Shown here piece by piece: positions 42,691-50,012 of a stretch of DNA of 50,012 nucleotides. Position numbers and translations under genes: made by a program. The stretch covers positions 2,401 through 52,412 of the forward strand of contig PGXT01000018.1 of assembly GCA_002839285.1 (NCBI GenBank), in the 5' to 3' direction. The notes below the pieces were generated by a model. It ran no database searches. It saw only the letters and a list, made by a program, of their open reading frames with translations, and was not told the origin of the DNA. Origin of the DNA: Spirochaetae bacterium HGW-Spirochaetae-5 (GTDB taxonomy: Bacteria; Spirochaetota; UBA4802; UBA5550). Position 1 is the stretch's first letter; the number at the start of each line of letters is the position of its first letter.

Positions 42691-42714
42691 TCAGAAAAAA
42701 CAAAAGGATTGAAC

Positions 42715-43407
42715 ATGATCGATTTAGAAAAATTCCTCACACCTACTGATATCATTGACAGCGACAGTGATGAAGTGATTGCATACATGAGAGATATCAT
42801 CGGAAATGATAACATCACATACACTGAAAAAGCGATCAGGCTCTATCTAAGGGTAAGAGATGATATAAGATACAATCCCTACCTCCCCTTTTACAAACCA
42901 GAGCACTATATGGCCAGCAACGTAATTAAAGCGGGAGAGGGTTTCTGTATTACTAAAGCCGGTCTCTTGTGCGCAGTTGCAAGAGCGGCGGGTATTCCAT
43001 CGCGGATTGGATTTGCCACTGTAAAAAATCATCTCTCGACGAGACAGCTTCTTGAGTATCTGGGATCGGATATTGTGGCGTATCACGGATATACGGAGCT
43101 ATGGCTTGAAGGGAGATGGGTTAAAGCGACTCCTGCATTTAACGCGGAGTTATGCGCTCTGCACAAAGTCCCGCCGCTTGAATTTGACGGTCTGAACGAT
43201 TCAATTTTCCAGGAATATAACTCCGACAAGTCGAGATATATGGAGTACATTGCTTACCACGGCGAGTTTTCCGATATACCCGTCGACCGCATTGTTAAAG
43301 CATGGGAAGAAGCTTACGGGAAAGATCGCGTTGCAGGATGGAAAACAATTATCGAGAATAAGGAAAAACATGGCGGACTCGACTTTATGAAGGAAGATAT
43401 AATCTGA
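42715..43407 (+). CDS. Transglutaminase-like (papain-fold) protein
   Basis: The ATG at 42715, with AAGGA 6 nt upstream, is preferred to the in-frame TTG at 42709. The 230-residue protein has the transglutaminase core order. Cys78 lies in AGEGFCITKAGLL, His124 in YHGYTELWL, and then come GRWVKATPAFN and LEFDGLNDSIF. In classical transglutaminase-like enzymes an Asp follows the His strand (VDPT); here the position reads KATP, so the third catalytic residue is changed or supplied elsewhere. It is cytosolic. The methyltransferase gene begins at the base after its stop. Activity could be proteolytic, amidating or lost; substrate unknown. Confidence 0.8.
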   Translation: MIDLEKFLTPTDIIDSDSDEVIAYMRDIIGNDNITYTEKAIRLYLRVRDDIRYNPYLPFYKPEHYMASNVIKAGEGFCITKAGLLCAVARAAGIPSRIGFATVKNHLSTRQLLEYLGSDIVAYHGYTELWLEGRWVKATPAFNAELCALHKVPPLEFDGLNDSIFQEYNSDKSRYMEYIAYHGEFSDIPVDRIVKAWEEAYGKDRVAGWKTIIENKEKHGGLDFMKEDII

Positions 43408-44289
43408 ATGTTTAAAGAACATGTACAGCATTGCCCGCTCTGCGGAAGCATTGCAATTAATAATAAATATCACATAGACAGATACAATCTGGAGTTTCAT
43501 GTGGACTGCTGCAATGACTGCGGTTTTATATTTATGAATCCGCTATTTACAGATGATGTAATTGAAAATTTCTACTCTGAGGAATATTTCAAAGGGAGAG
43601 CCGACTATTCATACATTGACGAACGTGAGATAAAAAAATACTCACAATATGTATGGAATAAGCGTATTGATGTTATCCGTGAGTATGTAAAAACCGGCAA
43701 TTTCCTTGATATAGGATGTTCTTTCGGAGGCTTACTTGAATCCGCGTCAAGATATTTCACGCCATACGGGATTGAACTGTCGGACTATGCATATTCACAC
43801 GCTTCTGAAATATTCGGGAAGAATATACATCATGGCACACTGGACAGTCACAAGTTTAAATATGATTTTTTCTCGGCTATTACTATGATTGAGCTGATCG
43901 AACATCTGGCTGATCCTGTTTCTGCGGTGAATGAATGTTTTAAACTCCTTAGACCTGAGGGAGTTCTTGTTGTTCAAACTGCAAATATGAACGGCAAACA
44001 GGCGAAAGATCTCAAAGACAAATATGAATATTTCATGCCGGGACATCTTTCATATTTTACTGCTGAAAATCTTACAATGCTGCTTAAGTCCGCAGGTTTC
44101 AGAAAAATAAAAATATATTATCCGGTTGAATTCGGACTCATACCGAAACTTCTCAAATCACGGGGGAGTTTCAAAAAAATTTCAGATTATGCTGCATGGT
44201 GGAGAATATCATCCTACCATATGAAGAGTAAAATTCATTTCGGCAATTTTGCAATGACAAGCTCAATGGTTATTTATGCTGTTAAATAA
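43408..44289 (+). CDS. SAM-dependent methyltransferase with N-terminal zinc knuckle
   Basis: The 293-residue protein starts with four cysteines C9-C12 and C35-C38 in a zinc-ribbon arrangement (HCPLCGS and CNDCGFIF). A class I methyltransferase domain of the Methyltransf_23 type follows: SAM-binding FLDIGCSFGG (99-108), a helix-strand pair with TMIELIEHLADP (the UbiG/sugar-methyltransferase-like acidic and HL region), and LRPEGVLVVQT. The C-terminal part (about 215-293) is variable. Proteins of this layout often modify sugars or polyketide-like intermediates. It abuts the transglutaminase-like gene without a gap, so the two should be translated together; no shared pathway is recognised. Confidence 0.85.
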   Translation: MFKEHVQHCPLCGSIAINNKYHIDRYNLEFHVDCCNDCGFIFMNPLFTDDVIENFYSEEYFKGRADYSYIDEREIKKYSQYVWNKRIDVIREYVKTGNFLDIGCSFGGLLESASRYFTPYGIELSDYAYSHASEIFGKNIHHGTLDSHKFKYDFFSAITMIELIEHLADPVSAVNECFKLLRPEGVLVVQTANMNGKQAKDLKDKYEYFMPGHLSYFTAENLTMLLKSAGFRKIKIYYPVEFGLIPKLLKSRGSFKKISDYAAWWRISSYHMKSKIHFGNFAMTSSMVIYAVK

Positions 44290-44328: not shown

Positions 44329-44418
44329 AAACTTTTTTAACTCACCCCCGGCTCTGCCGCGCCTACTTCGACAAGCTCAGCACATCGCCTCTCTTTGATG
44401 AAAAATAGAGGGGCTTCG
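44329..44418. repeat. Inverted partial copy of the 42440 element
   Basis: This 90-bp stretch is a near match to the reverse complement of 42530-42621, including AAACTTTTTT, ACTCACCCCCGGC, GCCTACTTCGACAAGCTCAG and the AGAGGGGCTTCG end. Together the copies form inverted repeats around the two genes at 42715-44289. The rest of the gap to 44638 is AT-rich and contains the promoter and operator. Confidence 0.85.
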
Positions 44419-44532: not shown

Positions 44533-44560
44533 TTGACAAATTAAATTATGCGGTTATAAT
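44533..44560 (+). promoter_or_regulatory. Exact-consensus sigma70 promoter of the SCP2/transketolase operon
   Basis: TTGACA (44533-44538) and TATAAT (44555-44560), both exact, are separated by 16 bp. The predicted transcription start, about 44567, lies inside a palindromic sequence. The first gene starts 78 bp downstream of the -10 box. Confidence 0.85.
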
Positions 44561-44580
44561 ATGAGCGATTACTCACTCGT
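44561..44580. promoter_or_regulatory. Candidate TetR-type operator overlapping the transcription start
   Basis: GAGCGA (44563-44568) and TCACTC (44573-44578) form an inverted repeat with one mismatch and a TTAC spacer. Extending to ATGAGCGA/TCACTCGT gives six of eight paired positions. The size and placement directly after the -10 box suit repression by a TetR-family protein; one is encoded downstream at 49699. Confidence 0.55.
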
Positions 44581-44638
44581 AAAAACTGTTTTATCAATTA
44601 AATATTAGAGGAATAAAAAATAATCAAAAGAGGTTTTC

Positions 44639-45400
44639 ATGAACTTTAATCTTATCAAAGCTAACCTTAATCTCTACGCGGTAATCAAAAATCTTGAGGA
44701 TCTGACAGTACATGACAAAGAAATGAAAGAGCTGATAAGCAATTGGAATCTTTCAATTCAATTTATTGTCAGAAACGGGCCGCGGGCTTTTGTTGAATTC
44801 GCAACCGGGAAATGTAATGTAGGACAGGGACGGATGAAAAATCCGTCAATAATTCTATACTTCTTTTCACCTCTCCATCTTAATAAAATGTTTGATGGAA
44901 CTGCAAACCCCATACCGCTGAAGGGGATTACAAAAATCGGATTTCTCACAAAAGAGTTTCCTAAACTTACAGATCGTCTTGCATACTACCTCAAACCGGA
45001 CGATGACCTTCTTAAAAATGAGAACTATCTGAAAATCAATACCATAATGCTCATGAATACAGCAGCATTTGCAATCCCGGAAATAGCGGGTTATGATAAA
45101 ACAGGCAAAATCATAGCATCTCACATGCCTGAAGGTATTATTGAGATGAAGATTCTACCCGATTTTCACTCCGTAAACATTACATTCAGCCATGACCGGA
45201 TTACATCACAGAAAGGTAAAGCAGACAAACCATCGGCGGTAATGGCGATGAAAAATGTAAAGATAGCAAATGCCTTCCTGAACGGTAAAACAGATGCATT
45301 TACTGCCATAGCCACGGGTGATGTTGTGATAAAAGGGGTGATCCCCATGCTCGATGCGACATCCCTGCTGCTCGACAGAATTCCGGAATATATATCATGA
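44639..45400 (+). CDS. SCP2-like lipid-binding protein, first copy
   Basis: SCP2 (sterol carrier) folds bind hydrophobic molecules. The 253-residue cytosolic protein appears to hold two such domains. The first (about 30-115) runs WNLSIQFIVRNGPRAFVEF, KNPSIILYFFSPLHLNKMF and then PIPLKGITKIGFL. The second (about 155-250) runs GIIEMKILPDFHSVNITF, ends with ATGDVVIKGVIPMLDATS, and has the terminal helix typical of SCP2. It clearly resembles the protein at 48566-49342. The assignment to SCP2 is by pattern and not certain. AGAGG lies upstream of the ATG. It heads the operon; the aminotransferase gene starts 10 bp after its stop. Confidence 0.65.
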   Translation: MNFNLIKANLNLYAVIKNLEDLTVHDKEMKELISNWNLSIQFIVRNGPRAFVEFATGKCNVGQGRMKNPSIILYFFSPLHLNKMFDGTANPIPLKGITKIGFLTKEFPKLTDRLAYYLKPDDDLLKNENYLKINTIMLMNTAAFAIPEIAGYDKTGKIIASHMPEGIIEMKILPDFHSVNITFSHDRITSQKGKADKPSAVMAMKNVKIANAFLNGKTDAFTAIATGDVVIKGVIPMLDATSLLLDRIPEYIS

Positions 45401-45410
45401 GGAGAAATTG

Positions 45411-46667
45411 ATGAAAATTTATAATTATAAAAAATCCCATGCTCTGTTTAAAAAAGCGGCAGAGATTATCCCCTGCGGTATTTACGGACACTATAGCCCC
45501 TCACCGCTTGTTCCTGCGACTGCCTATCCATTCTATACAGCTAAAGCGAAGGGCTCACGCATATGGGATGTTGACGGAAACGAATTTATCGACTATATGT
45601 GTGCTTACGGTCCCATGGTTACAGGTTACGGGAATCCGAAAATTGAGGCGGCCGCGGCGAAACAGAATAAACTGGGAAACTGCACTACTGCTGTTCCGCC
45701 GATTATGGTTGAACTTGCAGAATATATGACCGACCTGATCCCATGTGCCGACTGGGCGTTCTTTGCAAAAAACGGAGGCGATGTAACGAATTACGCTGTA
45801 ATGGTTGCCCGCGCCGCAACAGGGAGAGACAAGATACTTATGATATCAGGAGGATACCACGGAGTTTCGCCATGGATGCAGACGGCGGGTCACCATGGAG
45901 TCATGGATGACGACAAGAAGAATGTTATAGCGATTAAATGGAATGATATCGCGCAGTTTGAAAAAACAGTTTCAGAGAATAAAGGTAAAATTGCATGCTT
46001 TATATCATCGCCTTACCATCACCCGGTTTTCTGCGATAATGAATACCCCGCTGATGGCTACTGGCAGTCAATCGAAAAGATATGCAGAAGAGAGGGTATC
46101 GTAATTATTACTGATGATATCCGCGCTGGATTCAGACTTGATATGCGCGGTTCGAATGAGTTCTTCGGATACAAGAGCGACCTGATCTGTTACTGTAAAG
46201 CTCTGGCTAATGGTTATCCTATTTCAGCACTTGTCGGTTCGAAAGATCTGATGAATGCGGCGTCTAAAGTTTTCTATACAGGGAGCTACTGGTTTTCAGC
46301 TGTACCCATGGCCGCAGCTCTGGCTAACCTTAAAGAGATGAAAAGAACCAATGCACCGGCATTTATGCTTAAACAGGGGGAGAAGCTTCTCAACAGTATG
46401 GTAAAGATCGCCTCAAATTACGGATACGATCTGAAAGTTTCGGGCGCACCATCGATGCCGTATCTTAGAATTACAAACGATCCGAGCCTTATGCTCCACC
46501 AGGAGTGGTGTGCCGAATGTACAAAGCGGGGCGCGTATTTTACATCTCACCACAACTGGTTTATCTCTACTGCACACGATGATAAAGATATAAAAAAGAC
46601 ATGGGATATCGTTGATGATGCATTTAAAGCGATAAAGAAAAAATTCGGAGATGAATTCCAACTATAA
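45411..46667 (+). CDS. Class III PLP-dependent aminotransferase (glutamate-1-semialdehyde aminomutase-like)
   Basis: The ATG at 45411 is preceded by GAGGAGA; longer frames overlap the SCP2-like gene. The 418-residue protein has the fold-type I, class III pattern. DVDGNEFIDYMCAYGP lies near 53, the Gly/Asn turn KNGGDVTNYAVMVARAATG (usually NSGTEA) near 120, and SGGYHG near 146. D235-D236 occur in ITDDIRAGFR, and the PLP lysine is K263 in CKALANGYPISALVG. Members include glutamate-1-semialdehyde aminomutases and omega- or sugar aminotransferases. Neighbouring transketolase subunits suggest that it aminates a ketose-like or alpha-hydroxy-ketone product. The real glutamate-1-semialdehyde enzyme would be expected with haem genes, which are absent here. 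Confidence 0.85.
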   Translation: MKIYNYKKSHALFKKAAEIIPCGIYGHYSPSPLVPATAYPFYTAKAKGSRIWDVDGNEFIDYMCAYGPMVTGYGNPKIEAAAAKQNKLGNCTTAVPPIMVELAEYMTDLIPCADWAFFAKNGGDVTNYAVMVARAATGRDKILMISGGYHGVSPWMQTAGHHGVMDDDKKNVIAIKWNDIAQFEKTVSENKGKIACFISSPYHHPVFCDNEYPADGYWQSIEKICRREGIVIITDDIRAGFRLDMRGSNEFFGYKSDLICYCKALANGYPISALVGSKDLMNAASKVFYTGSYWFSAVPMAAALANLKEMKRTNAPAFMLKQGEKLLNSMVKIASNYGYDLKVSGAPSMPYLRITNDPSLMLHQEWCAECTKRGAYFTSHHNWFISTAHDDKDIKKTWDIVDDAFKAIKKKFGDEFQL

Positions 46668-46677
46668 GGAGATTAAA

Positions 46678-47508
46678 ATGCCGATCACTGAACTTGAAAT
46701 TAAAAATCTTACAGAAACAGCTCGCAAAATCAGGCATGATATTATCGATACAACAGTCTGGGCCGGAGGCGCACATATCGGCGGAGGGCTGAGCATGGTT
46801 GAGATAATGACCCTGCTCTACTTCAAGTATCTCAACATCGACCCTGCAAAGCCGGACTGGGAAGAGAGGGACAGAGTTGTATTATCAAAGGGTCATGGAG
46901 GAGCCGGTTACGCTCCGGTTCTTGCAAACAGGGGATTCTTTGACAGAGATGAACTTAAGGATTTCAATCACTTTATGTCTAAATTCGGAATGCACCTGGA
47001 CAGTCTCAAAGTTAAAGGTGTTGATGTATCTACAGGATCACTGGGGCACGGACTATCCATGGCCGTGGGACTTGCTCTTGGCGCACGACTTCAGAAGAAA
47101 AGCTGGAAAACCTACTGCATCCTTGGTGACGGGGAGTGCAACGAAGGGAGCGTATGGGAAGCCGCAATGGCTGCTGCCCATTTTAAAGTAACCAATCTTA
47201 TAACCTTTGTAGACCGGAACAGGCTTATGATTGACGGGAAGACCGAAGAGATAATGTCAGTGGAGCCCTTTGCCGACAAATGGAGAGCTTTCGGATTTAT
47301 TGTTAAAGAGGTCAATGGCCATGACTACAAGGCGTTATCTGATGCAATTGATTTTGCTTTGGAAGAAGCAAAAACTCCGGTAATTATTATTGCCGACACA
47401 ATCAAGGGTAAAGGTGTCGATTTCATGGAGAATCAGGTAAAATGGCACTACGGAAGCATCGATTCGGAACTTGCGGAAAAAGCGCACTCATCAGTTGACC
47501 GGGGCTGA
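46678..47508 (+). CDS. Transketolase N-terminal subunit
   Basis: Two-subunit transketolases use thiamine diphosphate to transfer a two-carbon ketol group between sugars or aldehydes. AAGGAG precedes the ATG at 46678; an earlier in-frame ATG overlaps the aminotransferase end. The 276-residue protein carries H33 in GGAHIGGGLS and H72 in SKGHGGAGY. The thiamine-diphosphate motif GDGECNEG (150-157) runs through to N181 in FVDRNRLMIDG, completing the GDG-N motif. VKWHYGSI follows near the C terminus. Length and order match the N-terminal half of classical transketolase. It is 34 bp before the C-terminal subunit gene. Confidence 0.93.
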   Translation: MPITELEIKNLTETARKIRHDIIDTTVWAGGAHIGGGLSMVEIMTLLYFKYLNIDPAKPDWEERDRVVLSKGHGGAGYAPVLANRGFFDRDELKDFNHFMSKFGMHLDSLKVKGVDVSTGSLGHGLSMAVGLALGARLQKKSWKTYCILGDGECNEGSVWEAAMAAAHFKVTNLITFVDRNRLMIDGKTEEIMSVEPFADKWRAFGFIVKEVNGHDYKALSDAIDFALEEAKTPVIIIADTIKGKGVDFMENQVKWHYGSIDSELAEKAHSSVDRG

Positions 47509-47542
47509 AAAAATCAGAGCTATCTTGTGAAGGAGAAATATA

Positions 47543-48562
47543 ATGGCTAAAGAGATAACAGGAACAACATGGACAGTTTATGACGCCAATACAATGACAC
47601 AGGCAGAGATATACGGCAGCGTATTATGCGAACTTGGAGAGAAACATCCCGATATAGTTGGACTTACGGCGGATCTAGGCAAGTCCACAAAAATCGGTCT
47701 GTTCGGAGATAAATTTCCCGATAGATTTTTCAACGTGGGAATTGCCGAACAGAACATGTTCGGAATTGCAGCGGGACTTGCAAAGTCGGGACTCCTCCCC
47801 TTTGTATCGACCATGGCTGCATTTACAGCGATGCGCGGACTTGAACAGGTGAGAACAGATATATGCTATCAGAATCTTAATGTGAAGATGATCGCTACTC
47901 ACGGAGGAGTGTCATTCGGCGCTGCAGGGACAACTCACCACTGTACTGAGGATATAGCAATCATGCGCGCCCTTGCGAATATGACAGTTATAGTCCCGGC
48001 GGATGGAATCGAAACAGCAGCAGCCGTTCGGGCGTGTATAGATTATAAAGGACCGGTCTATATACGGATAGGCCGGGGATTTGAACCTACATTTTATAAA
48101 GATGAAAACTACGGATTTAAAATCGGGAAAGCAGTTACAATTCAGGACGGCACTGACATTACACTCATCTGCTGCGGAGTGACAGTGCTTCAGGCTGCAG
48201 AGGCTGCGAAGATTCTCAAAGAGAGCGACGGATTATCAGTAAGAGTAATCAACATGCATACTCTTAAACCACTCGATGAAGAAGTTATCCTTAAAGCTCT
48301 CACTGAAACAAGACGTATCATTACTTTTGAAGACCACAATATTCATGGAGGACTTGGAAGCGCAGTTGCAGATGTAATTGCACAGAGCGGAAAGGGATGC
48401 GCATTTGAGAAAGTCGGGATACCTGACTGCTACTGTGTTGTCGGATACCCGGAAGACCTTTACTGCCACTACAAACTTGACTGCGACAGTATAGTTGAAA
48501 AAGTCCGTGAAGTTATGGGGAGAGACTTTGAAGAGGATGAAAGCTGGGAGGACGAGGTATAG
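47543..48562 (+). CDS. Transketolase C-terminal subunit
   Basis: The 339-residue protein contains the pyrimidine-binding and C-terminal domains. These include GLTADLGKSTK, the catalytic Glu region FFNVGIAEQNMFGIAAGLA (E near 69), and FVSTMAAFTAMRGLEQVRTD. The loop ATHGGVSFGAAGTTHHCTED and the C-terminal transketolase fold with TFEDHNIHGGLGSAVADV follow. AAGGAGA precedes the start. It assembles with the N-terminal subunit encoded just upstream. The acidic end (EEDESWEDEV) is not typical. It lies 3 bp from the second SCP2-like gene, so the unit is coupled. The aldehyde acceptor is unknown. Confidence 0.93.
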   Translation: MAKEITGTTWTVYDANTMTQAEIYGSVLCELGEKHPDIVGLTADLGKSTKIGLFGDKFPDRFFNVGIAEQNMFGIAAGLAKSGLLPFVSTMAAFTAMRGLEQVRTDICYQNLNVKMIATHGGVSFGAAGTTHHCTEDIAIMRALANMTVIVPADGIETAAAVRACIDYKGPVYIRIGRGFEPTFYKDENYGFKIGKAVTIQDGTDITLICCGVTVLQAAEAAKILKESDGLSVRVINMHTLKPLDEEVILKALTETRRIITFEDHNIHGGLGSAVADVIAQSGKGCAFEKVGIPDCYCVVGYPEDLYCHYKLDCDSIVEKVREVMGRDFEEDESWEDEV

Positions 48563-48565
48563 TTT

Positions 48566-49342
48566 ATGGCCACCGAGAGAGAGCTTCTTACAGCAAGACT
48601 GTTTTTCAGAGCTGTATTCCCCATAATAAAAGTTATCCTCAACGATGACGAGGGGATGAAAAAGAAATTTAAAAATGTTAAAGCTGAAGTGCAGTTTGTC
48701 GCAAAAGATGAAAAAGGTCCCGTTGGAGCATGGCTGATTTTCAATAACGGGGAGTTCAACGTTGAGTACGGGATATGCCAAAAGCCTGATATAACGTTCT
48801 CTTTTAAATCAGTTAAAAAAATGAACGATATGCTTGCAGGGAAACCTGTAATTCCTTCAATAAAAGGTTTCACTAAAGTTCCGCTTCTGATAAAAATCTT
48901 ATCTCTTCTTCTTTCGCTGAAAATATTAATGCCAAATGCCCGTCCAAAAGATCCGCAGAAAAAAAGATTAAAAGTAAAACTTTCGTTTTACATGATTACA
49001 ACGGCACTCAGTCAGTACAACAAAGGCGGAGATGCGGATATGATAAAATGGACCACAAAACAGCCGGACAGAATATACCAGATTTCAGTTGAAGGTGAGG
49101 ATATTGCAGCATATTTAAGGGTCAAAGCAGGAAACAGCAAAGCTGGACGGGGATTTTATTTAAGGAAACGCCCCTTCCTGCACATGAAATTTCACGGCGT
49201 AGACGGTGCACTTGCCGTTCTCCTGAGAGATGCGGAGTTTGTCGATGCAGTAGGGAAAGGATACGTTTCCGTAGAAGGTGCACCGGAGTATGCCGCGCAG
49301 CTGAATGATTTTATGCAAAGAATACAGGCGATGCTTACCTGA
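48566..49342 (+). CDS. SCP2-like lipid-binding protein, second copy
   Basis: The 258-residue protein is a diverged paralogue of the operon's first gene product, with two SCP2-like domains. Domain one (about 24-105) has VKAEVQFVAKDEKGPVGAWL, KPDITFSFKSVKKMNDMLAG and IPSIKGFTKVPLL. Domain two (about 165-255) has YQISVEGEDIAAYLRVKAG, FLHMKFHGVDGALAVLL and VSVEGAPEYAAQLNDFMQ. Between them is a hydrophobic stretch (about 108-122, LLIKILSLLLSLKIL) that could be a membrane-facing helix. It starts 3 bp after the transketolase subunit gene and ends the operon before the strong terminator at 49361-49406. Confidence 0.68.
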   Translation: MATERELLTARLFFRAVFPIIKVILNDDEGMKKKFKNVKAEVQFVAKDEKGPVGAWLIFNNGEFNVEYGICQKPDITFSFKSVKKMNDMLAGKPVIPSIKGFTKVPLLIKILSLLLSLKILMPNARPKDPQKKRLKVKLSFYMITTALSQYNKGGDADMIKWTTKQPDRIYQISVEGEDIAAYLRVKAGNSKAGRGFYLRKRPFLHMKFHGVDGALAVLLRDAEFVDAVGKGYVSVEGAPEYAAQLNDFMQRIQAMLT

Positions 49343-49360
49343 TCAGCAATAAAGAAATTC

Positions 49361-49406
49361 TATATGCTCTGCCCCTCTGCCGCAGCGCAGAGGGGCAGAG
49401 CATATA
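49361..49406. terminator. Terminator of the SCP2/transketolase operon
   Basis: A perfect 20-bp stem (49361-49380 with 49387-49406) contains GCTCTGCCCCTCTGC; its core also occurs in the repeats upstream of flgB. ATTTACTATTTT follows. The next 130 bp are AT-rich without a gene. Confidence 0.9.
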
Positions 49407-49540
49407 ATTTACTATTTTAATAGCCACTTGAATAGAATCAGTTGACGGCCTTCCGTATATAATTGTGTACGATTATCGCAAAGAGAGATTCAGAATCACG
49501 TATATAATAAGCAGTTATAATTCTGACTATTTTGTTTTTT

Positions 49541-49605
49541 AAAAAAGCTCTATTTTCCCCGCCGCCGAAGTCGTCGGAAAGAATAGATTCTTTTTTTTAC
49601 ACTAA
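49541..49605. repeat. Copy 3 of the roughly 70-bp hairpin repeat
   Basis: AAAAAAGCTC, then TTTTCCCCGCCGCCGAAG, then TTTTTTTTACACTAAAT. The stem is damaged (TCGTCGG), but both flanks align with the copies at 5741 and 30249. Confidence 0.7.
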
Positions 49606-49698
49606 ATAATACTGATTAATAATTATTACTGTAAAATAATAGACTTTATTCAGCAGAAAATAATTATATCCAAACTCGGACATTTACAGGAATAATTA

Positions 49699-50012
49699 AT
49701 GAGAAAAGAGATTTCTAACTCAATGAAAAGTAAAAAGACAAAATCTGACAAATACCATACAGAAACTTTTGAGAAGATTCCGGAGAGTAAACGGAAATTA
49801 ATTCTTGAAGCGGCAGTTATCGAGTTTTCCTCGAAGGGTTTTAATGCGGCTAATATAAATGTTATAGCTAAAAACGCAGGCATCAGCATCGGATCGATGT
49901 ACCAGTACTTCGATTCGAAGGAGAATCTTTTCCTCACTGCCATTGACGACGGTTACAGGATTATTGAACATTCACTTTCAGAAATTGATCTTATAAATGG
50001 AACTGTTTTTGA
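49699..50012 (+). CDS. TetR/AcrR-family transcriptional regulator (partial)
   Basis: The frame runs off the end of the window after about 104 codons, so only the DNA-binding part is visible. A basic leader of about 34 residues is followed by KRKLILEAAVIEFSSKGFNA and the helix-turn-helix VIAKNAGISIGSMYQYFDSK, ending ENLFLTAI, typical of TetR regulators. AGGA lies 8 nt before the ATG. It is in the same direction as the SCP2/transketolase operon but separated from it by a terminator and 356 bp. It is a natural candidate for the protein that binds the palindrome at 44561-44580; this is inference. Its ligand domain is not in the window. Confidence 0.9.
   Translation, partial: MRKEISNSMKSKKTKSDKYHTETFEKIPESKRKLILEAAVIEFSSKGFNAANINVIAKNAGISIGSMYQYFDSKENLFLTAIDDGYRIIEHSLSEIDLINGTVF

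Follow-up and report, generated by a model that had tools for sequence, protein, structure and literature searches.

What does an operon do that places a class III pyridoxal 5'-phosphate (PLP) aminotransferase and a two-part transketolase between two SCP2 proteins? Such an operon lies near the end of a 50,012-nucleotide stretch of contig PGXT01000018.1 from Spirochaetae bacterium HGW-Spirochaetae-5, referred to here as the window, and reads SCP2a, aminotransferase, TK-N, TK-C (the N- and C-terminal halves of the transketolase), SCP2b. Judging from the sequences of its products and of their relatives, there is roughly an even chance that its proteins form a pathway, assisted by carriers, that handles sphingoid bases or near-identical long-chain 2-amino-1,3-diols and works mainly in breakdown. 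The separate parts of this reading are firmer. The substrate is very probably hydrophobic, and it is likely to be a sphingoid-like 2-amino-1,3-diol; given such a substrate, breakdown is the direction we would expect with similar confidence.

A five-gene cassette found in nine phyla

Bacterial and archaeal genomes were scanned with the aminotransferase, which returned more than 500 relatives; the locus figures given below refer to the best 80. The five genes were complete and in the same order in 49 of these 80 aminotransferase-centred loci, a recurrence far beyond chance. With phyla taken from record names, full cassettes were found in nine: Spirochaetota, Desulfobacterota, Hydrogenedentota, Bacteroidota, Bacillota, Actinomycetota (Thermoleophilia), Nitrospirota, Verrucomicrobiota, and Myxococcota. 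A preliminary description, made from the window's sequence alone, had called the gene set undescribed and had named its confinement to close relatives as a finding that would count against the idea. Its neighbourhood proved to be conserved far past the spirochaetes, and the open-licence literature yielded no account of the gene set or of a sphingoid/transketolase combination. Cultured strains with the cassette include Desulfosarcina widdelii, Desulfatibacillum alkenivorans, two Desulfoluna, Draconibacterium aestuarii, Lutispora saccharofermentans, and Oceanirhabdus, and most of the named organisms are presumably anaerobes. Relatives in Oscillospiraceae and Treponema carry the cassette whole or in part.

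Pairwise distances among the five proteins were correlated across 46 cassettes (r = 0.67–0.86, with permutations reaching at most 0.25), so the set travels together. Its occurrence is patchy, with SCP2b present in 31 of the 393 genomes of a spirochaete phylum sample. In a quick tree of the aminotransferase, a Treponema falls with Bacillota, which points to horizontal transfer.

Two enzymes, each with an SCP2 partner

SCP2a passes the Pfam SCP2 model (PF02036) with 31.4 bits against a cut-off of 21.3 (E 2.4e-7), while SCP2b, at 18.3 bits, falls below the same threshold. AlphaFold2 (AF2) models of both proteins, built on 33-sequence alignments, had mean confidence scores (pLDDT) of 94.5 for SCP2a and 93.0 for SCP2b, and each contains two tandem SCP2 units. 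Foldseek matched the two models to solved SCP2 domains with a probability of 1.00, the matches being alkylsulfatase C-termini, human SCP-2L, UbiJ, and AF1534. Because of these structural results, the weak Pfam call of SCP2b is made good. Both proteins are thus predicted with high confidence to be tandem SCP2 folds, as the preliminary description had proposed with less assurance than it gave to the enzymes.

The two SCP2 genes do not exchange places. SCP2a is immediately 5' of the aminotransferase in 70 of the 80 loci and SCP2b immediately 3' of TK-C in 51 of 54, and many of the remaining loci are truncated at a contig end. A related family has the cassette split, with SCP2a and the aminotransferase at one site and the transketolase and SCP2b at another (family f5). 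In split and extra modules, the aminotransferase keeps SCP2a beside it and the transketolase keeps SCP2b, so each enzyme is paired with its own SCP2 protein. By analogy, the SCP2 proteins would carry the pathway substrate. The precedent is UbiJ and UbiT, small SCP2 proteins of ubiquinone biosynthesis that aid soluble enzymes with a very hydrophobic substrate (see PMC6747719). The cassette differs from these in its tandem SCP2 domains, in having two such proteins each tied to one enzyme, and in lacking a quinone link.

Generic family annotation labels the two enzymes transketolase and glutamate-1-semialdehyde aminomutase (GSAM), exactly the names to be expected if an ordinary pentose-phosphate transketolase and a GSAM lay between two SCP2 genes by accident. 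We regard such an accident as very improbable. When the aminotransferase family profile was compared with the PDB, the best solved match was FumI, the aminopentol aminotransferase of Sphingopyxis sp. MTA144 (6hbs, E 2.1e-123; also 6hbv), with GSAM next and far behind (E 8e-65). The cassette enzyme is 39.6% identical to FumI across 399 residues; 72 of 85 cassette-invariant residues are retained in FumI and 48 in GSAM; and motifs such as MCAYGP, DWA.F.KNG, and a C-terminal HN are common to the cassette enzyme and FumI. FumI also clusters with the cassette enzymes in a quick tree in which its own branch is long (SH-aLRT 88). Against the hemL equivalog model TIGR00713, the cassette aminotransferase scored 212.6 bits, well short of the cut-off of 527.3. 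By its sequence, it is FumI-like and not GSAM-like.

In the FumI reaction, pyruvate receives the 2-amino group from hydrolysed fumonisin B1, and the enzyme is part of a fumonisin catabolic pathway (PMC2933618), a setting that the cassette does not share. Fumonisins are sphinganine analogues (PMC7711896). Because the aminotransferase is FumI-like, a long-chain 2-amino alcohol such as a sphingoid base fits it better than an amino-ketose. Of the two kinds of substrate offered in the preliminary description, a hydrophobic or lipid-linked amino alcohol is supported and the amino-ketose is not.

Some relatives of the aminotransferase occur without SCP2 or transketolase genes. Paralogues about 42% identical to it (L151 7716-9342, L152, L154, L155, and L156) adjoin a 123-aa protein of the VOC/glyoxalase family and likely represent a second, related pathway; several cassettes of Bacillota and Spirochaetota have a related VOC protein 3' of SCP2b. 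The cassette-type aminotransferases of L119, L122, L128 (8079-8870), and L130 form a clade that likewise stands apart from SCP2 and transketolase, and in L119 and L128 a short-chain dehydrogenase is directly 5' of the aminotransferase gene.

The nearest solved relative of the transketolase is the split enzyme of Carboxydothermus hydrogenoformans (6yaj, E 9e-100; also 6yak). The cassette enzyme has the two-chain architecture, and shares with the Carboxydothermus enzyme and with small bacterial and human-type transketolases the thiamine diphosphate and catalytic histidine motifs. Invariant in our alignments were the thiamine diphosphate motif GDGE, H33, H73, H106, and H257 of TK-N, and H120 and H132 of TK-C. 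It departs from these relatives in its dedicated tandem SCP2 partner, in a C-terminal WEDEV tail, and at the position of E. coli D469, an aspartate in contact with the hydroxyl of sugar acceptors. This position is alanine in 52 of 53 cassette transketolases and glycine in the other, within SFGxAGxTH in place of GEDGxxH, and is aspartate in 6yaj, in human transketolase, and in a full-length transketolase of the window genome. In the E. coli enzyme, D469T gave a fivefold gain of activity on propionaldehyde (PMC6310800). Given that effect and the alanine at the same position, the cassette transketolase is expected to accept an unhydroxylated chain. The acidic tail, fE.d..WEDEV (48527-48559), is conserved, extends past the ordinary transketolase end, and is a candidate contact for SCP2b.

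The full-length transketolase of the window genome is a separate protein (665 aa, contig C2) with a normal GEDGPTHQP motif, and the cassette transketolase is not the sole transketolase of its genome. This second enzyme, the hemL score, and the FumI likeness contradict the housekeeping pair whose presence would have undone the preliminary description, and the gene order and SCP2 pairing kept across nine phyla argue against accident as well.

A rather unlikely alternative, on a par with the synthetic route weighed below, is that the same two reactions serve the use or detoxification of another hydrophobic amino compound, whether a polyketide-like amine, an amino sugar linked to a lipid, an amino-polyol lipid, or something comparable. 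The FumI substrate is itself a polyketide-type amine and not a sphingoid base. In addition, extra transketolase-SCP2b modules occur without an aminotransferase, near zinc alcohol dehydrogenases and extended short-chain dehydrogenases/reductases (SDRs), so the transketolase substrate is not always an amine. However, the breadth of phyla is more in keeping with a widespread natural lipid than with an uncommon toxin, and the class 3 aldehyde dehydrogenases (ALDHs) and enoate-type reductases found beside cassettes suit the aldehydes expected of sphingoid bases. No sugar-biosynthesis family recurs around the cassettes, and a sugar-nucleotide or capsule pathway was rejected.

Of the modules without the cassette aminotransferase, those at L144 (8258-13285), L145 (1298-6379), L148, and L173 (1252-5829) all adjoin a zinc alcohol dehydrogenase that is threonine-3-dehydrogenase-like; the first three also have an extended SDR, and L173 has a class 3 ALDH. 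In these four, a lipid polyol is perhaps the substrate of the same C2 chemistry. At L146 (3572-10854) and L147, the genes accompanying the module encode a TetR regulator, a tungsten-type aldehyde ferredoxin oxidoreductase (AOR), and a class III aminotransferase other than that of the cassette.

The proposed pathway and its direction

In the pathway that we propose for sphingoid bases, the FumI-like aminotransferase would receive its long-chain amine from SCP2a, pass the 2-amino group to pyruvate, and yield a 1,3-dihydroxy-2-ketone and alanine; alanine dehydrogenase could recycle the alanine. SCP2b would present the ketone to the split transketolase, where the C1-C2 ketol unit would be removed on thiamine diphosphate and handed on to an aldehyde; a sugar phosphate is the probable acceptor. 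The fatty aldehyde released would be (2E)-hexadecenal from sphingosine or hexadecanal from sphinganine. The enal may be reduced by an enoate-type flavoenzyme to its saturated form, and oxidation of the aldehyde to a fatty acid would fall to an AOR or a class 3 ALDH. Until a lipid inducer appears, TetR would keep the operon repressed. Sphingoid bases would in this way be dismantled (or built) without kinase, lyase, or oxygen, by transamination and transketolase C2 transfer with a tandem SCP2 carrier for each enzyme, in at least nine phyla; we put the chances for and against this scheme about equal.

A single TetR family adjoins 17 loci and three more (20), and the TetR of the window is its orthologue. 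In L082, L101, and L170, an alanine dehydrogenase gene of the same strand precedes the cassette by 36–45 bp, and the L170 protein passes a curated alanine dehydrogenase model; the gene is nearby in L068, L071, and L157. A class 3 ALDH, with human fatty aldehyde dehydrogenase among its nearest solved relatives, adjoins five loci (L089, L093, L116, L173, and L177), and an old-yellow-enzyme or BaiCD-like enoate reductase adjoins seven (L064, L065, L121, L125, L129, L131, and L175). AOR genes were found at L131, L146, and L147, and L131 carries the cassette, a VOC gene, an enoate reductase, a TetR gene, and an AOR gene in that order on a single strand. Single cases of a FadL-type porin (L080) and of an AMP-binding acyl ligase (L068) were seen near the cassette. 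The window organism encodes AORs and a homologue of class 3 ALDH elsewhere in its genome, and the L064 flavoenzyme has a 74% identical orthologue there, located at a contig end. Alanine dehydrogenase, aldehyde-oxidising enzymes, enoate-type reductases, and TetR as neighbours argue for breakdown rather than synthesis, and the synthetic pathway implied in the preliminary description is not supported. Ceramidase was commoner in cassette genomes when the spirochaete sample was counted per genome (10/31 vs 27/362, p 1.7e-4), and was not recognised as a linked gene in the cassette neighbourhoods examined.

The same chemistry is reversible, and run backwards it would make a sphingoid-like 2-amino-1,3-diol lipid without serine palmitoyltransferase: the transketolase would join a ketol to a fatty aldehyde, and the aminotransferase would aminate the 2-ketone with alanine, which alanine dehydrogenase could equally supply. 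We hold this direction to be possible, though doubtful. In its favour, none of the five genes encodes a lipid hydrolase. Yet the recurrent neighbours of the cassette, which include class 3 ALDH, AOR, enoate-type reductase, and TetR, do not include any acyl-CoA or acyl-ACP reductase, N-acyltransferase, or head-group enzyme, and the patchy distribution among spirochaete genomes (31/393) also speaks against synthesis.

Several observations weigh against breakdown of a sphingoid base. A search of the window genome detected no alanine dehydrogenase and found no ceramidase, the latter being as a synthetic role would have it, and the association of ceramidase with the cassette was weak when counted per genus (5/19 vs 15/149, p 0.055). 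In two Hydrogenedentota loci, a PlsC-like acyltransferase is directly upstream (67–95 bp), which fits synthesis, and the cassette flanks are otherwise mostly variable. The natural FumI substrate lacks the 1-hydroxyl required of a transketolase donor, and the FumI product would be a methyl ketone, unusable as a ketol donor. Loss of the D469 aspartate may also weaken the use of ordinary sugar-phosphate acceptors, which makes the second half-reaction, the fate of the C2 unit, a weak point. This fate and the direction are the weakest points of the sphingoid breakdown pathway.

The sphingosine-1-phosphate lyase pathway uses a kinase and a PLP lyase and yields phosphoethanolamine. In eukaryotes and Burkholderia it ends in hexadecenal, which is oxidised by a class 3 ALDH (see PMC5234717 and PMC10301067). 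The cassette route would instead combine transamination and C2 transfer with no phosphorylation, and Pfam identified no Pyridoxal_deC-type PLP lyase among the five operon genes. The sphBCD system of Pseudomonas aeruginosa metabolises sphingosine, phytosphingosine, and sphinganine, as proposed for the cassette, but with a periplasmic oxidoreductase, a cytochrome c, and a dispensable PLP aldolase, and with no transketolase or SCP2 protein (PMC11893366). The same source states that the biochemical mechanism of sphingosine metabolism in P. aeruginosa is still unresolved. Neither cytochrome c nor periplasmic oxidoreductase genes were found by Pfam among the five operon genes, and gene content excludes the cassette as a SphBCD orthologue.

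The enzyme families of the operon are individually known; their combination, the SCP2 pairing, and the predicted pathway would be new, and the open-licence literature gave no account of an oxygen-free bacterial sphingoid route. If the pathway is real, it is a new way of breaking down (or, reversed, making) sphingoid bases, in which a central sugar enzyme has been recruited to lipid chemistry by dedicated carrier proteins; this would be, to our knowledge, the first natural transketolase working on a carrier-bound lipid. A compact, widespread operon with a specific chemical prediction makes such an oxygen-free sphingosine route testable. The cassette could also serve as a marker for sphingolipid turnover in sediments and gut, and its transketolase and transaminase, a natural pair, could be put to use in the production of chiral aminodiols.

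Layout of the operon and its flanks

The features of the locus are collected in Table 1. The gaps between successive genes, from SCP2a to SCP2b, are 10, 10, 34, and 3 bp, and ribosome-binding sites are visible ahead of most of the five.

Table 1. Features of the operon and adjoining sequence, in window coordinates
Feature	Position	Strand	Evidence
Promoter, sigma-70-type, TTGACA-16-TATAAT	44533-44560	+	12/12 consensus match only
SCP2a, 253-aa tandem SCP2 lipid-carrier protein (predicted), aminotransferase partner	44639-45400	+	Pfam, AF2, Foldseek, gene order
Class III PLP aminotransferase, FumI (aminopentol aminotransferase) branch	45411-46667	+	Pfam Aminotran_3, profile vs PDB, tree, residues
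TK-N, transketolase N-terminal half, thiamine diphosphate-binding	46678-47508	+	Pfam Transketolase_N E 4.7e-44
TK-C, transketolase C-terminal half	47543-48562	+	Pfam Transket_pyr/Transketolase_C; 6yaj match; motif table
SCP2b, 258-aa tandem SCP2 protein (predicted), transketolase partner	48566-49342	+	AF2, Foldseek, gene order; Pfam sub-threshold
Hairpin, 20-bp stem, terminator-like on both strands	49361-49406	.	Sequence
TetR-family regulator, start only, continues past window	49699-50012	+	Pfam TetR_N E 3.9e-14

The co-directional, closely spaced genes, the exact-consensus promoter, the enzyme families, and the TetR neighbour of the preliminary description all agree with the open reading frame coordinates, the promoter match, and the Pfam results. 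Its strong terminator stands in part: the hairpin is strong and can be read on both strands, and its T run is weak. The promoter is the sole full match among 16 promoter-like sites, a number of sites close to chance expectation. The TetR gene carries on in the contig beyond the window, where a masked run of N breaks it (L161 300-713, G000:C287).

Upstream of the cassette, at 42709-44289, genes for a transglutaminase-core protein and a methyltransferase abut (43407/43408), with no linkage to the cassette in relatives. Within the AT-rich gap ahead of the promoter, a GC-rich stretch at 44340-44400, gcctacttcgacaagctcagcacatcgcc, resembles a dispersed repeat or remnant.

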